Origin: Prevotella communis
Lineage (GTDB): Bacteria > Bacteroidota > Bacteroidia > Bacteroidales > Bacteroidaceae
Assembly: GCF_022024115.1 (NCBI RefSeq)
Contig: NZ_CP091792.1
Span: 2,666,001-2,730,000, forward strand
Length of the DNA: 64,000 nt
Reading direction: 5' to 3'
Of this stretch, positions 54,232 to 64,000 are shown piece by piece. Positions within the stretch are counted from its first letter, which is position 1, and every line of letters begins with the position of its first letter. A model generated the notes under the pieces. It ran no database searches, was not told the origin of the DNA, and worked only from the letters and a program-made list of their open reading frames with translations. Both the position numbers and the translations under genes were made by a program.

Positions 54232-56643
54232 CTACACCATTATTTCTTTTAATAGTTTCCGGTACTTACCTTTTTTTATCCTCTCTACAAAACCGTGAAT
54301 CATCCATCTTTGGCATTGCTTCGCAGCAGGATTCTCTTCAATATCAAGTACATCCATCACCTCTCGAGTCGTGAATGTCTCCGGCAAATCCCTGTAGGCA
54401 TCGGCATTCTTCGAGTTCTTTCGGCGGGGCACATACTCGCGGGCGGCATTGTCCCAAGAGTCCTGCAGCATCTGACCGAAGAAGTGGTCCTGGAAATAGA
54501 TCACGGCATCATAGATCAGCGTGGAGAACTTCAAGTCGTCATCATTGATTTCCAGCTGACCCGTTTTCTTAAACTGCTCATACTGGCGCCCGATGATGCG
54601 GGGCACGGTGAGCCAGGTGGCATAGAACACGGCACGCTTTCGCAGGTAGTCCAGCACATGGTCATCAGCGGCCTCGGCCTCCTGAGCCGACAGTTCACAG
54701 AGCTCATACACATGGTCTGTGAGGCGTTCCAGGGGCAGTTCACCGTGCAGTTGTTCAAAGCGGAAGCCCCACTGCTTCAGGGCTTCATTGGCCTGCCAGT
54801 CCACCATCTTCTTCTTCACCATCTGATAGCGGGCTACCTCCATCTGGAAAATGGCTACACGACTACAGAGACCGTCGTTGATATTACGCATGGTGAACTT
54901 CTTATAGAGGCTGATTTGCGTACCCGTGGTGACGCTGTTCCAGTACACGGGCAGGATGTCGTTGATGGAGTCGCCATTGGCATAGTCCACACCCGACAGC
55001 TCGTTATGGAAGGCTTTCAGCTCCAGGTCGTGCTTACCTATCCATGCTCCCCCACTCTGTGCAGAAATCGATGAATCGAGCTCTGAGTCAAACATATACA
55101 GGTGCATGGGCAGTACCTCGCCATCTACTATTTCCTTGGCGCGTTTCAGGCGTCGGAAGAAGATGTTGTTTGAGGTCTTCGTGGGCAGATAGCGAATCAT
55201 GCCCTCGGGCTCCACCAATGCGTCCTGCTTCTGGGCTTTACTCGAAGTTCCGCGCTTCTTCTGCTCCTGCTTGTAGCGGGTTTCCTGCGCACGCACCTCC
55301 TCGTCCTGCGCCCTCATGGCACACATAATCTGGTCGTCCAGGTCCTTCGCAAAACTCTTACCGCTGGCAGGGTCACCGATTATCAGCACCTGCGGGTTCA
55401 TACGCTGGCGGGCACCGTTGAAGTGCTTGTACCAGCAGCGTGTCATCAGCGTGCAGTACATGGCTCCAGAGGCCATCACAGCGCCAAGCCAGTTGTGCCT
55501 GCTCACTCCCTTGCAGGCTTCTGCATAAGGGGCGCAAAGGAGAGGCTCCAGCCTTTCAGCGAACTGCTCATAAGGCACTTCAACTGCTCCCACAGACTTT
55601 GCAGCTCCGTCGGGCTTGCTGGCGTGAATACCCACACTTTCAAGCACCCCTTGCATCCTCTTGGGGATGTCCTTGTAAAGCTTTCGCTCACAAGCCGTAT
55701 GAGCAATGTCCGTGACTTCCTTGTCGCCTCGTTCCCGGATGACGTCCTGCACAAATCCACACATTCTAAGCACCCTATCGACCATCTCGGGTTGGTTGTC
55801 GCAGATATATCTAAGGTCGAGAGCCAGCTGCAGCATTGTGCGGTGGCGGTCTCCAGTGGCAGGTGCGCCGCCTTGTGCGGTCTGCCACGCTTCGCAAATT
55901 TCTTTGTATTCAATTCCATGATAACGCAAATTTTCTTCATTATTTTCTTCTGAACACGGATTGCTCGGATTTGACGGATTATCCGTACCATCCGCTAGAT
56001 TCGTGGTCGTTTTAGTTTCTTGGGAGTGTCCGTCGCGATACTCAGCATCATATCGCTCGCCATACGCTTTGTTCTCGTACGTAAACAACTCCTTGTCAAT
56101 AAATAAAATATCGCTCTCCTTGCAGATGAAGCTCATGCGGCTGGCATCCTTGCAACTCTCGTCAACCTCTACGCCAAGCACTTTCGCCATAGCGTGCTGA
56201 TTGTCTATGAGATTACCCCAGTCCAGACGAGCCTTAAACACAATTTTCAAGCCCTCGCCCGATGGTGTGACATAAACCAAGAGAATGCCCAACTCAGCAG
56301 CTTTCTGCTTAAAGTCAGCGGAAGCAAACTCTCCACTCTTCACTCTAAACTCTTCACTTGGAATGTGGTCAACGTCCATTACCACGAGTCCCGTCAGACG
56401 AGTTGCAGACTGCTTTCGCCACTGCCCCAGTTTCCCAGCCTTCGACGTGGTCTCATCAAACGTGGCCTGGAAGATGAACGCAGGCAATTTTCGTTTGAGT
56501 GCCGCATCGTGCGTCTCACGATACTTGTCGATATTCTCGTTCCATTTGCTTGCCCTGACAAGCGCCCAAAACTGGGCCTCGTCCACAGGTAGCGTCGGAT
56601 TACTAAAATTCTTCTGATAGCAAAACATATTAGCAGAATTCAA
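54232..56643 (-). CDS. VirE-N / DUF3987 domain protein, copy 2
   Basis: 803 residues. The VirE-N part has VVMDVDHI (about 87-94) and GEGLKIVFKARLDW. DUF3987 follows, with a P-loop IGDPASGKSFAKD around residues 420-430 and the acidic FDSELDSSISAQSGGAW. Same domain order as the protein at 12512 but clearly diverged. Residues 96-107 (SEEFRVKSGEFA) are encoded by a TTCACTC-type repeat. The start overlaps the 56630 gene by 14 bases. Likely replication protein of a mobile element. Confidence 0.85.
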   Translation of the reverse strand: MNSANMFCYQKNFSNPTLPVDEAQFWALVRASKWNENIDKYRETHDAALKRKLPAFIFQATFDETTSKAGKLGQWRKQSATRLTGLVVMDVDHIPSEEFRVKSGEFASADFKQKAAELGILLVYVTPSGEGLKIVFKARLDWGNLIDNQHAMAKVLGVEVDESCKDASRMSFICKESDILFIDKELFTYENKAYGERYDAEYRDGHSQETKTTTNLADGTDNPSNPSNPCSEENNEENLRYHGIEYKEICEAWQTAQGGAPATGDRHRTMLQLALDLRYICDNQPEMVDRVLRMCGFVQDVIRERGDKEVTDIAHTACERKLYKDIPKRMQGVLESVGIHASKPDGAAKSVGAVEVPYEQFAERLEPLLCAPYAEACKGVSRHNWLGAVMASGAMYCTLMTRCWYKHFNGARQRMNPQVLIIGDPASGKSFAKDLDDQIMCAMRAQDEEVRAQETRYKQEQKKRGTSSKAQKQDALVEPEGMIRYLPTKTSNNIFFRRLKRAKEIVDGEVLPMHLYMFDSELDSSISAQSGGAWIGKHDLELKAFHNELSGVDYANGDSINDILPVYWNSVTTGTQISLYKKFTMRNINDGLCSRVAIFQMEVARYQMVKKKMVDWQANEALKQWGFRFEQLHGELPLERLTDHVYELCELSAQEAEAADDHVLDYLRKRAVFYATWLTVPRIIGRQYEQFKKTGQLEINDDDLKFSTLIYDAVIYFQDHFFGQMLQDSWDNAAREYVPRRKNSKNADAYRDLPETFTTREVMDVLDIEENPAAKQCQRWMIHGFVERIKKGKYRKLLKEIMV
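56327..56358 (-). repeat. Heptamer-like repeat inside VirE-N copy 2
   Basis: Plus strand AACTCTCCACTCTTCACTCT then AAACTCTTCACT, read in frame as EEFRVKSGEF between the beta strands of the VirE-N domain. Confidence 0.75.
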
Positions 56644-59990: not shown

Positions 59991-62309
59991 TTAACCATAC
60001 AGCCTTTGCTGGAACTCCTTAAACGTCTGACGTGCCTGAGAAACTCCGCCCAGCGAAGAGATGCCCTCTGGCACAGAACCGAACTTCAATTCAAGCTGTG
60101 TTTTCAGTTTATCCATTCTCAGTTCGTCAACACCCGAACGGATATAGGCATTGACAAGATATTCGACGAATTGTTTCTGCGACGCTGACAACGTGTCGTA
60201 GTAGTCCTTGATTCGCTCTGCACGCTCCTGACGCTCAATGGGTGTGGTAGCATAGGCAATATACTCCAGCACATCCATCAGGTCACTCTTCTCGGCATCA
60301 ATGATTCTGCGAATATCTTTCAAGACTTCCTTGCCATATCCAGCTTCATCGAGCTTCTCAAGTAATGCCTCGCGCGTATCGGGGTCGGCCCATTTCTGAT
60401 GCAGGTCTTCACTCGAAGAGAAGAAATCTGGCAGTCGGCCAAACATCTCCTCGATGAACTTCTGCGAACTGACGGGCTTGCCATCGGCACCCCAGAACAT
60501 GATATCATTGATAAACCTTATCCTGCGGGCTCGACCATCAGACAGTCTAACTTCCAGAATCGTAGGCACGTCTGGTTCGGGCTCTGGCGTGTCATCACGC
60601 GCCACCACAGGTTTTTCTTCTGGTATCTCGTAAACCACCTCTCTATGCTTCTTGACGCATGTACACGGATTATTGCCACACTTGGGACATACGGGCTCAC
60701 CGTCCCATCCGGGGTCTGAGTATTTCAGATAGGCCTTCACGAAATCCCAAATGGTGAAGTAATACTTTCCGTCATAGATACGTGTGCCACGGCCTACAAT
60801 CTGCTTGTATTCTATCATCGAGTTCACAGGACGCATCAGCACGATATGCCTGACGTTGCGCGCATCCACGCCTGTAGATAATTTCTCAGAGGTAGTCAGG
60901 ATGGTGGGAATGGTCTTTTCGTTGTTCTTGAATTCTTCCAAGAAAGCCTCGCCAATCTCACCATCATTGGCTGTCACTCTTTCGCAATAGCCTTTCTTCT
61001 TCCTGTAGGCATTAATCATATCCCTGACCTCAGCCGCATGGGCTTGGGTGGCACAGAATACGATAGCTTTCTCTGTTTCGTCTATCTTGCTCAGGAACTC
61101 CTTTACGCGGGCTTCATCCCTCTGACGAATCTTGATATTCCCCTTGTAGAAGTCCTCTTCGGTATAGACCTTTCCCTGTTCCACATCGCCACTGATCACC
61201 TCATCATCGGGAGAGTAGATATAGTTATCGATGTTGCTCATCATGTTGATATGACGGAAAGGCGTCAGGAAGCCATCTTCGATACCCTGTTTCAGGGAGT
61301 ACTCATAGGCATGATACGTGAAATACTGATAGGTATTCACGTTCTGGTCTACGCGAGGTGTTGCTGTCAGTCCCAGTTGCACGGCAGGCTTGAAATAATC
61401 CAGGATGCTGCGCCAGTTGCTCTCGTCGTTGGCACCACCTCGGTGACACTCGTCGATAATCACCAGGTCGAAGAAATCCTCGGGGTACTGTCCGAAATAA
61501 GGCGAGTCATCAGGGCCACACATAAAGGTCTGGAAAATGGTGAAGAAGATGCTGCCATTGGTAGGCACGCCACCGTTCTTAGCTACGGTGCCGGGCTTGA
61601 TTCTCACCAGCGCATCTTTCTTAAATCCACCAAAGTCTATCATGGCCTGCTTAGCCAGCGTGTTTCTGTCGGCAAGGAAGAGGATCCTTGGGCGTGTGCC
61701 TGTATGCTTCAGGTTCCAGCGTGCCTCAAACAGTTTCCAAGCTATCTGGAAGGCAATAAACGTCTTTCCCGTTCCAGTGGCAAGAGTCAGCAAGATGCGC
61801 TTCTCACCTTTTGCAATGCCTTCAAGCACGCGTCTTACAGCCAGTTCCTGATAGTATCGGGGTTGCTTCACACCATCACTATAATAAGGTATGGTGTTGA
61901 GCTTATCGCGCAAATCATTCGATGAGCCATACACGCGTTGCCACAGCTCCTCGGGCGATGGATACAACGTTACGAAATGCTCTTCGTAGCTCTGTCTATC
62001 CATTTCCCAGATATCGTTGCCATTGGTGGCGTATGTATATCGGATACCCAGCATGTCGGCATACTCCTTGGCCTGAGCCACGCCTTCGCTGTAGCTCAGC
62101 TCGTCGCTCTTTGCCTCGACGATAGCCAACTTCACGCCTTTGTATATCAGCACATAGTCAGCACGCTTGGGCTTGCCCTTCTGACTCCTACTGATCTTAC
62201 CTCTCGTAAAGGTATACTCGGTGGTGATGCGACTGCCTTCTGTCACACCCCATCCTGCAGCTTTCAGCTTTGGGTCTATCTTGTGTAGACGGGTATCCGA
62301 TTCGTTCAT
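59991..62309 (-). CDS. hsdR: Type I restriction enzyme, R subunit (EcoEI-like)
   Basis: 772 residues. N-terminal nuclease: ADYVLIY and AIVEAKSD give the D51...E65-x-K67 core. Helicase motor: Walker A ATGTGKT (177-183), motif II IIDECHRGG, motif III LTATPR, motif VI QIVGRGTR. A Cys-rich stretch CPKCGNNPCTC and the EcoEI_R C-terminal domain follow. It cleaves unmodified DNA as part of an HsdRMS complex. The ATG overlaps the stop of the kinase-like gene (ATGA), so the two are coupled. hsdM is not in the window; it is presumably beyond the right edge. Confidence 0.94.
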   Translation of the reverse strand: MNESDTRLHKIDPKLKAAGWGVTEGSRITTEYTFTRGKISRSQKGKPKRADYVLIYKGVKLAIVEAKSDELSYSEGVAQAKEYADMLGIRYTYATNGNDIWEMDRQSYEEHFVTLYPSPEELWQRVYGSSNDLRDKLNTIPYYSDGVKQPRYYQELAVRRVLEGIAKGEKRILLTLATGTGKTFIAFQIAWKLFEARWNLKHTGTRPRILFLADRNTLAKQAMIDFGGFKKDALVRIKPGTVAKNGGVPTNGSIFFTIFQTFMCGPDDSPYFGQYPEDFFDLVIIDECHRGGANDESNWRSILDYFKPAVQLGLTATPRVDQNVNTYQYFTYHAYEYSLKQGIEDGFLTPFRHINMMSNIDNYIYSPDDEVISGDVEQGKVYTEEDFYKGNIKIRQRDEARVKEFLSKIDETEKAIVFCATQAHAAEVRDMINAYRKKKGYCERVTANDGEIGEAFLEEFKNNEKTIPTILTTSEKLSTGVDARNVRHIVLMRPVNSMIEYKQIVGRGTRIYDGKYYFTIWDFVKAYLKYSDPGWDGEPVCPKCGNNPCTCVKKHREVVYEIPEEKPVVARDDTPEPEPDVPTILEVRLSDGRARRIRFINDIMFWGADGKPVSSQKFIEEMFGRLPDFFSSSEDLHQKWADPDTREALLEKLDEAGYGKEVLKDIRRIIDAEKSDLMDVLEYIAYATTPIERQERAERIKDYYDTLSASQKQFVEYLVNAYIRSGVDELRMDKLKTQLELKFGSVPEGISSLGGVSQARQTFKEFQQRLYG

Positions 62310-62944
62310 ATCTTTGCTATTTCTGCATCTATAACATACATATCACCATCTTGGTCAACTAACACGTTTCGTGGAACAACATCCCAAACCATAAAATCAT
62401 TGTTCGAGAAACGCCCTGGTTCACCATTTTTATCAAACCCGAGAGCCGACATATAAGTATCAATCATTATCTGTGTAGCAGGTTTTGCTTCACAAATACG
62501 TTCCTGTTCTAATACAGGCATAATGGTTCTTCCATCATATCCTGTAAAGCCATGTAATCTATATGCTGTATTAGGAAATATCAGATTATGAAGTAAAATC
62601 TTATCAAACAATTTGCATATTCCACCACTATTTAGCAGGTTATTTACTTTGAAAATAGTAGTTTCCGAGACATACGTATCATTTTCATTGCCACTAGGAC
62701 CGGGGGTTCCTAAATCGAATACATCGTCCATAGGAATCCATATACCTGCGTCCTTAGCCAACTGCTCGGCAGCACGCTGTTCTATTTCGAAGCGAGTTCC
62801 ATTTGCTTTGCCATTTCCAGATTTCTCCTCATGTATTCGGCAAAGTCTTTGGAGTTCATTGGAGACTTCTTGAATTCTACGATTTTCTTCATCGTACGCT
62901 CCATTGCTTCCTTGTGAAACTGATTCAAATATGTCATCATTCAT
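62306..62944 (-). CDS. Protein with kinase-like catalytic loop, embedded in the type I R-M locus
   Basis: 212 residues from the ATG at 62944 (MNDDIFESVSQGSN). The C-terminus reads WDVVPRNVLVDQDGDMYVIDAE: Asp188, Asn193 and Asp206 have exactly the spacing of the catalytic Asp, metal-binding Asn and DFG Asp of protein kinases (+5, +13). It resembles the kinase domains described in polyvalent proteins of mobile elements. The protein ends six residues after the DFG-equivalent, so no C-lobe tail. The stop overlaps the hsdR start by four bases (ATGA). A role regulating the R-M complex is inferred. Confidence 0.65.
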   Translation of the reverse strand: MNDDIFESVSQGSNGAYDEENRRIQEVSNELQRLCRIHEEKSGNGKANGTRFEIEQRAAEQLAKDAGIWIPMDDVFDLGTPGPSGNENDTYVSETTIFKVNNLLNSGGICKLFDKILLHNLIFPNTAYRLHGFTGYDGRTIMPVLEQERICEAKPATQIMIDTYMSALGFDKNGEPGRFSNNDFMVWDVVPRNVLVDQDGDMYVIDAEIAKI

Positions 62945-62957
62945 TCTGTTTTTTCTG

Positions 62958-62965
62958 CAAAAATA
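62958..62965 (-). promoter_or_regulatory. Promoter TATTTTTG for the kinase-like-hsdR unit
   Basis: Exact TAnnTTTG on the minus strand, 14 bases before the ATG at 62944. A TGCAATTAATTGCA palindrome (63006-63019) lies upstream. It separates the kinase-hsdR unit from hsdS. Confidence 0.65.
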
Positions 62966-63043
62966 CAATTATATTTTAAAATTACAACATTTTTAGGCCA
63001 AAATCTGCAATTAATTGCAGTTATTTCACCTTTAAATATTTCA

Positions 63044-64000
63044 TCATTCAAACACTTGTCGTAATAATGCTTGTTTCAGGGCATCGCACTCGGCGATGGT
63101 CTTCTGCAGTACCTCCTCCAACTCACGGACATGAGCGGAGAGAGAATCGAGACGAGTGACAATACGCTGTTGCTCGGAGAGAGGGGGGATTGTGAGAGGC
63201 ATTTCCTCAACAATACCAGCATTAATATTTAGCATGGTTGCTCCAGATGCGCTTTTCAACAAATAGTTCTTACATACTTCTGATTGAAACAACATCTGCA
63301 TGAAAGCATTATCTACCTTAGCTTTAAACCTTACAAAAAGAGACCCCGTTCCGCAAAGGAAACCATCTTCATTTGATGAAACTATTGCACATCGTCCAAT
63401 CTCACCTCGTCTGGCAAAGATAACATCATTTGTTCTCAATAAATAAGCTGATAGTTCTTTTGCTTTTTCCTCGGAGATAGTATAATCATTATTTGCAACT
63501 ATCTTACCTTCAATCATGTGAATAGGATTAACCAAGGGAATGCCATCACTAATATAGTCCTTTTTATGTAGTAAGCTACCAAATGGCCCTATTCTTACCT
63601 GTGCTATTTCCTTCAGCTTCTTCTCCTCCCATCCCTCTTTTGGTTCCATAGCCTTAGCGAGTGCTTTTTGGAAGAGGGCACGGGCTTCGCTCAGCTTCTT
63701 TTCCGCATTCGCTTTCAGTTCTTCGATATGAGCAAAGGCTGAATCAAGGCGAGAAACAATACGCTGTTGTTCAGAGAATATGGGATATGATATTGAAATA
63801 TCCATAATCTCTTTCCTGTTTATGGAAGGGAATACAGCTCCTTCCTTACCTTTAATATTATTCTTTTCTGACAAAAGGAAATAAAAAAGATAATCTTTAT
63901 CGATAAGAGTATTAGGCCTAACAGCAGCTAAGCCACGACCTATACATACTCTTTGAGTTGCAAAGTTTATGTCCCCAACAGGAGCTCTTACAGACATCAA
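63044..64000 (-). CDS. hsdS: Type I restriction enzyme, specificity subunit (partial, runs off the right edge)
   Basis: 318 residues visible; the true start lies beyond 64000. It begins inside the first target-recognition domain. SEQQRIVSRLDSAFAHIEEL and SEQQRIVTRLDSLSAHVREL are the two conserved helical spacers; the second recognition domain (SLLHKKDYISDGIPLVNP to GTGSLFVRFKAK) lies between them. It sets the sequence cut by HsdR and methylated by HsdM. The two spacer repeats are nearly identical, which allows domain shuffling. Confidence 0.93.
   Translation of the reverse strand: MMSVRAPVGDINFATQRVCIGRGLAAVRPNTLIDKDYLFYFLLSEKNNIKGKEGAVFPSINRKEIMDISISYPIFSEQQRIVSRLDSAFAHIEELKANAEKKLSEARALFQKALAKAMEPKEGWEEKKLKEIAQVRIGPFGSLLHKKDYISDGIPLVNPIHMIEGKIVANNDYTISEEKAKELSAYLLRTNDVIFARRGEIGRCAIVSSNEDGFLCGTGSLFVRFKAKVDNAFMQMLFQSEVCKNYLLKSASGATMLNINAGIVEEMPLTIPPLSEQQRIVTRLDSLSAHVRELEEVLQKTIAECDALKQALLRQVFE

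Follow-up and report, generated by a model that had tools for sequence, protein, structure and literature searches.

The window analyzed here is a stretch of 64,000 nucleotides from Prevotella communis (contig NZ_CP091792.1, positions 2,666,001 to 2,730,000), and at its right end a gene for a predicted 212-amino-acid (aa) protein kinase stands inside a type I restriction-modification (R-M) operon, between hsdS and hsdR. Comparison of this gene with its relatives makes it likely that a roaming kinase gene of the polyvalent type came to occupy the passenger slot in a type I operon of a gut Prevotella. Loci are cited below by L numbers and genomes by G numbers.

The three genes follow one another on the minus strand as hsdS (ending at 63044), kinase and hsdR, with hsdM upstream of hsdS, beyond the window. 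The kinase open reading frame (ORF) runs for 212 codons from an ATG at 62944 to a TGA at 62306, or for 220 codons if an upstream TTG is used as the start, and its position between hsdS and hsdR is that of embedded type I operon genes. A preliminary description of this DNA had proposed this arrangement, along with the ATGA (62309 to 62306) in which the kinase gene overlaps hsdR, and the ORF coordinates and domain matches bear it out. A profile scan found HSDR_N, ResIII and EcoEI_R_C in HsdR, which also matched the NCBIfam model for EcoAI/FtnUII HsdR (NF046051), and Methylase_S as the specificity domain of HsdS. Promoters in Bacteroidetes carry a -7 box of the form TAnnTTTG and a TTG at -33. The sequence TATTTTTG, which begins 21 bases before the kinase ORF, and a TTG further upstream fit this pattern, the promoter being a consensus match only. 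The promoter that the preliminary description had assigned to the kinase finds a counterpart in its relatives, in that 87 of 90 carry a TAnnTTTG box within 70 bases upstream, where shuffles would give 6.0 and downstream controls gave 4/91.

The reading of Asp188, Asn193 and Asp206 as catalytic residues, also proposed earlier, proved right. A profile search placed residues 56-209 in the Pfam family Kinase-PolyVal (PF18762) with an E value of 8.5e-24 and 84.8 bits against a cutoff of 27, and the structure prediction that had been suggested as a check on the fold, an AlphaFold2 model of the 212-aa protein, was kinase-like, with fold matches of middling score. Lys99, Asp188 and Asn193 were invariant in all 89 intact relatives (a set from which L102 and L110 had been removed), and Asp206 was kept in 88 of 89, the remaining one having an alignment gap; we take these four residues, by motif, to serve in ATP binding and phosphotransfer. 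PADLOC, PHROGs and NCBIfam held no usable family for the kinase (best E values 0.03, 0.046 and 0.017), and a profile search of PDB sequences returned short partial matches only (best Ika8, E 5.2e-9, profile positions 165-201), none with a stretch that passed on its own, and these were not used. Glu87 and Gln147 are also invariant among the intact relatives and, with model strands at 88-92 and 140-148, correspond in our reading to the Glu before strand 2 and the Gln in the last strand of the N-terminal lobe in the available text of PMC5512222 (Iyer et al. 2017). The same text lists an insert between a conserved His and Asp as a Kinase-PolyVal feature; His119, invariant in the intact relatives, is a candidate for that His. 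The protein stops 6 residues past Asp206, a loss of the C-terminal kinase subdomain in the wording of that paper. We predict that the window gene encodes a minimal Ser/Thr/Tyr kinase made of an N-terminal lobe and a catalytic core, with the usual C-terminal lobe absent, and we infer that the protein has kinase activity. One viral contig (L119) holds a 4261-aa frame that contains a match of 44% identity to kinase residues 2-211.

Relatives were collected by a scan of genome contigs that gave 214; the 80 most similar to the window kinase were kept, and together with the window and 3 viral loci they form a set of 84. The 80 loci are labelled mostly Prevotella, Prevotellaceae, Bacteroidaceae or Bacteroidales, with two from Lachnospiraceae. 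Within the genus, a kinase match with an E value of 1e-20 or lower, often a partial one, was present in 75 of 398 sampled genomes, and within the taxonomic family 67 of 301 genomes had one at 1e-6. At E 0.001, the number of homologous protein clusters was 2039. When the ORFs within 5 kb of the kinase were clustered across the 84 loci, no family other than ORFs overlapping the kinase itself occurred in more than 10 loci.

What is shared can be delimited by copies that are nearly identical but differently surrounded: the match begins about 40-100 bases upstream of the ATG and ends near the stop codon. It runs from -55 to about the stop in L052/L054 (96.5% identical), from -78 to +3 in L040/L044 (94.6%) and from -67 to -2 in L006/L056 (89.5%), and in L096/L099 (98.5%) it ends at -90 and +51; in the latter pair and its kin the match extends as far as about 57 bases beyond the stop codon, into a stretch read as signal-peptide coding. 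L067 and L068 (99.7%) part at +33, the upstream border not being covered because the L068 contig starts 54 bases before the ATG. The residues after DAEI differ from copy to copy, as would be expected if the final codons and the stop come from the DNA at each site. Taken together, the comparison shows the kinase as a dispersed compact unit of about 0.7-0.8 kb, comprising the putative promoter and the ORF, at many unrelated places in Prevotella. The median ratio of nonsynonymous to synonymous substitution rates (dN/dS) between kinase copies was 0.126 (130 pairs with 0.05<dS<1), and by this measure the protein is under purifying selection while its location changes.

Many broken or fragmentary kinase copies occur across the genomes. 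The window genome itself carries a second copy, split and degraded (L007:7174-7478, genome positions 3562173-3562477), whose pieces are 58% and 43% identical to the window kinase; an Mrr-type gene is about 600 bases away from it, and a GmrSD/HNH-type gene lies beyond. A genome listed as the same species, G233, has an unbroken kinase copy near the other end of its chromosome sequence. Apart from these copies, the window genome contains a more distant kinase-like ORF of 259 aa (L003:1453-2232, about 31% identity), with an equally scored match in G233, that looks like another subfamily. In 12 loci (L067, L068, L071, L085, L088, L092, L098, L102, L106, L107, L116 and L118) the opposite strand is open across the whole kinase gene, giving ORFs of 224-250 aa, which is probably an effect of codon bias.

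The gap between hsdS and hsdR is itself variable. In L123, whose HsdR is 82% identical to that of the window, hsdS is followed after 29 bases by hsdR, with no kinase, and in L133 hsdS ends one base before hsdR, again with no kinase. Other relatives have a Schlafen-AlbA_2 (L124), Mrr (L125) or RhuM (L126) gene between the hsdS match and hsdR; L127 has an ORF there that resembles the RhuM of L126 (by likeness only), the gap of L129 holds a 23S_rRNA_IVP protein that scored below the cutoff, and L128 has RhuM before hsdR, with no hsdS match in its short flank. Because relatives hold nothing or other genes at this place, the gap can be regarded as an interchangeable passenger slot. Near another EcoAI-type operon, in genome G127, a distant kinase-like stretch (L131:4339-4809, 31% identity) lies about 480 bases downstream of hsdR.

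We propose that the stand-alone kinase is a relative of a module inside the giant polyvalent proteins of phages and conjugative elements, that the unit of promoter and ORF lands in unrelated sites, and that one copy came to fill the hsdS-hsdR slot of an EcoAI-type operon. The unit stops right at the start codon of hsdR, which thereby comes to lie downstream of the kinase, and re-initiation at the observed ATGA junction is the probable mode of hsdR translation. To judge from its family and neighborhood, the kinase would most likely be autonomous, phosphorylating phage, plasmid or host proteins in conflicts with mobile elements; we infer such a conflict role, for which it may profit from sitting in defense loci and would not require the restriction operon of the window.

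How the unit moves was approached through direct repeats, by comparing 400 bases upstream of each kinase with 400 bases downstream and taking the 99% level of mismatched pairs as the threshold. Repeats above this level flanked the kinase at 19 of 78 loci; where both 400-base flanks were complete they were found at 17/67 kinases versus 4/263 control ORFs of the same loci (Fisher 8.7e-10). In a second set, from a family search, 6 of 22 non-duplicate copies passed (L034 was too short, and the duplicates L010-L015 were dropped). The repeats have no fixed length. They include part of the end of an 865-aa ORF (L111, 74 bases, 72/74 matching), a gene start (L114, 51 bases, 51/51), a stretch of promoter upstream of a gene read as rpsP, a candidate identification (L105, 56 bases, 53/56), and a repeat of 124/129 in L098. 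A kinase-free counterpart exists for L021, since in L209 the same left flank runs through a single copy of the repeat directly into about 70 bases of the right flank (257/294). For L024, the kinase-free L196 has one repeat copy and a right flank scoring 153 against a shuffled maximum of 149, and it counts as a partial empty site, homology of the right flank being unclear. Kinase-free relatives of the L081 target gene and candidate empty sites for L031 were uninformative, as their flanks are not shared. Three control ORFs also have strong flanking direct repeats (L079:1344-2271, L065:5952-6453 and L112:7292-8099, in each ORF's own orientation) and are possibly other duplicated or mobile single genes.

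These data can be read in two ways. With a probability approaching one half, the unit is not mobile itself, and horizontal transfer with recombination at repeats such as terminators, signal-peptide codons and promoters shuffles a selected gene, the flanking repeats being by-products. The terminator-like or signal-peptide sequences at which several repeats lie (L016, L021, L096, L070), unit ends that vary by locus and the many broken copies would fit this explanation, but the repeated parts of L111, L114 and L105 are ordinary-looking pieces of genes and control ORFs are rarely flanked by repeats. Less probable, and put forward tentatively, is that the gene is mobile without a transposase: a lone kinase of phage origin, equipped with its own promoter, would be moved in trans by machinery not recognised, with target duplications of about 40-150 bases. 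On that account the duplication would leave a neighboring host gene its start, end or promoter, and the kinase would settle beside restriction systems more often than chance.

The association with R-M genes was surveyed in two ways. Probes for the window HsdM, HsdS and HsdR had any match in the fetched flanks of 6/80 loci (L039, L056, L085, L092, L106 and L109). A wider tblastn check with 16 probes across 93 loci, of which 24 had less than 1 kb of flank on one side, found an R-M gene within 1 kb at 9 loci firmly (window, L039, L056, L079, L088, L092, L106, L115 and L192) and at 2 weakly (L085, where a PLD protein matches RE_NgoFVII below its cutoff, and L103), so that location beside R-M genes is not conserved across relatives. 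The survey of hsdS/hsdR neighbors that the preliminary description had called for did recover the order hsdS, kinase, hsdR in the operon direction in L056 and L039, whose HsdS and HsdR are unlike those of the window and of each other, and with the kinase inverted and one extra ORF on each side in L092/L106. On a quick tree of the 89 intact relatives (L082, which has no start, is absent from it), the nine firm rows require 7 changes, of which well-supported branches force only 2; 500 label shuffles gave a mean of 8.7 changes and were as low as 7 in 11.

Summed Methylase_S matches (180 in 61 genomes) indicate roughly 1.5 hsdS genes per genome, and by a rough estimate random intergenic landing would touch an hsd operon well below 1% of the time, against which five type I placements in about 80 loci of this similarity-ranked sample is high. 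Proteins near the kinase (137 of 139, after L074 with 2666 aa and L084 with 1206 aa were dropped) included HSDR_N in 4/137 and Methylase_S in 3/137, counting the R and S of the window; neither was among the 25 families listed for 127 of 208 far proteins, a list from which singly matched families may be missing. PADLOC models matched 149 times near and 41 times far, counts swollen by overlapping type I models. The same-placement loci L044 and L106 were excluded from this comparison. Overall, this suggests that restriction neighbors are commoner than the rough background predicts, and the kinase may have an accessory role in defense. The kinases of L115 and L192 are 59% identical, and each lies about 475 bases before a gene pair that is the same in both (L192:9582-11815 and the corresponding part of L115): one gene encodes an adenine methyltransferase of the EcoRI type and the other a GmrSD_N-HNH protein, and the two are likely a restriction pair.

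Several observations weigh against a roaming unit that happened upon the operon. No mobility enzyme, whether transposase or recombinase, is linked to the unit, its shared part being the promoter and the kinase ORF, and its ends are not uniform. The loci are a non-random sample ranked by similarity to the window kinase, and most of the records are metagenome-assembled genomes (MAGs); placements with different neighbors occur in five genomes that are non-MAG or in single or near-single contigs (window, L085, L104, L112 and L192), so dispersal is not merely an assembly artefact. The window copy has no direct repeat above the threshold in the 400-base flank comparison, and later samples were poorer in repeats (0/2 and 1/13, duplicates dropped), so the share of copies with repeats varies among the first, second and later sets. 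Some repeats also have other possible origins: that of L021 recurs widely in related genomes as a dispersed family, that of L016 looks to us like a terminator repeat, the signal-peptide cases (L096, L070, L104, L097, L069 and L116) could partly be paralogous genes, and L027 and L081 are not independent because the repeat and right flank are common to both. Finally, 4 changes on the tree suffice for the six type I rows, where shuffles averaged 5.9 and none of 500 was as low. Type I placement is clustered: the copies of the window and L056 are sisters, and L092 has the same placement as L106. The clustering leans toward a link with type I systems, and it slightly raised our low estimate for a dedicated link while slightly lowering our high confidence in the roaming kinase.

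A possibility we consider unlikely is that the kinase is a guarded effector of the PrrC kind, restrained by the R-M complex until phage inhibition of restriction frees it and its phosphorylation of host proteins halts the cell. In the available text of PMC2610378, type I R-M loci are home to PrrC and to some of the rlo genes, and in that of PMC12255303, DarTG2 lies between hsdS and hsdR (the RRDM island) at a site called a potential recombination hotspot; R-M adjacency of the kinase also recurs on the tree, as noted above. On the other hand, most copies have no R-M neighbor as a possible guard and bear their own promoter box. Absent R-M neighbors do not alone decide the matter, because RloC genes too lie mostly outside R-M loci according to the same part of PMC2610378. 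The kinase resembles the PrrC, RloC and rlo cases as a non-R-M gene in an hsd locus, but PrrC and RloC are anticodon nucleases with an ATPase domain, and the link of PrrC to R-M is experimental, whereas the window kinase is known from its sequence. DarTG2 differs as a toxin-antitoxin pair in an island with a repressor and no kinase.

Still less probable is the dedicated regulator suggested by the preliminary description, in which the kinase would phosphorylate HsdR (or HsdM or HsdS) and tune restriction. Besides the type I clustering, the ATGA overlap and the placement of the kinase directly between S and R in three unlike operons speak for it, as does an 8-row clade that unites the window, L056 and L039 and has 4 R-M-adjacent rows (by labels that predate a correction of L115 and L085). 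Yet R-M genes occur within 1 kb at only 9 to 11 of the 93 loci, and since the window HsdR was matched by the HsdR of neither L056 nor L039, no single R subunit is tracked by the kinase. Most sampled relatives lie away from hsd genes, the same operon exists without the kinase (L123) or with other passengers, and G233 has no HsdR match at 1e-150. A dedicated kinase-HsdR pair was consequently set aside as the default, and phospho-control of HsdR is not favored. That the gene is a decaying pseudokinase or an annotation artefact, as the many fragmentary copies (one in the window genome) might suggest, is very improbable given that 89 copies are intact, their active-site residues are conserved and dN/dS is low.

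Part of this picture is already known. The available text of PMC5512222 describes the polyvalent-protein kinase family, stand-alone Bacteroidetes versions included, and proposes for it a role in conflicts with phages or plasmids, and the hsdS-hsdR slot for embedded genes has likewise been described. The window kinase agrees with that family in sequence, in C-terminal lobe loss and in the Glu before strand 2 and the Gln late in the N-terminal lobe, and differs in that the genes here lie scattered as compact units, of which some have duplicated flanks and one sits within a type I operon. Our literature searches found no report of a Kinase-PolyVal gene in an hsd operon or of its dispersal with duplicated flanks, so the earlier suggestion that the combination may be undescribed holds for the combination and not for its parts. 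OspG and NleH (4q5h, 4lrj), which are minimal effector kinases, differ as secreted bacterial effectors, with no sequence relation shown. If dispersal is active, Prevotella would be home to a kinase gene that moves although no mobility enzyme is recognised for it, and one would have to ask by what means single genes change place in Bacteroidales. The scattered copies also form a natural set of stand-alone polyvalent kinases under selection, one small gene with which the conflict proposal could be tried, and the window teaches that a gene may lie within an R-M operon and still have no dedicated functional link to it.

Features of the kinase locus in the window, with the basis of each assignment
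Feature	Position	Strand	Basis
Kinase gene, stand-alone Kinase-PolyVal, 212 aa (Lys99, Asp188, Asn193, Asp206)	62306..62944	-	ORF, PF18762, model, conserved residues
ATGA, overlap of kinase stop and hsdR start	62306..62309	-	Sequence
Putative promoter -7 box of kinase, TATTTTTG	62958..62965	-	Sequence; TAnnTTTG in relatives
Putative -33 element TTG, 19 bases before -7 box	62985..62987	-	Consensus match only
hsdR, EcoAI/FtnUII-type, 772 aa	59991..62309	-	Domain profiles; NF046051, E 3.4e-228
hsdS, 3' part (complete gene 385 aa at L006:6045-7202)	63044..64000	-	Methylase_S

Elsewhere in the window, an Rfam scan gave no match at gathering scores. Positions 54232-56643 encode an 803-aa protein with a BT4734-like N-terminal domain, a family that we take to be common in mobile elements of Bacteroidales.

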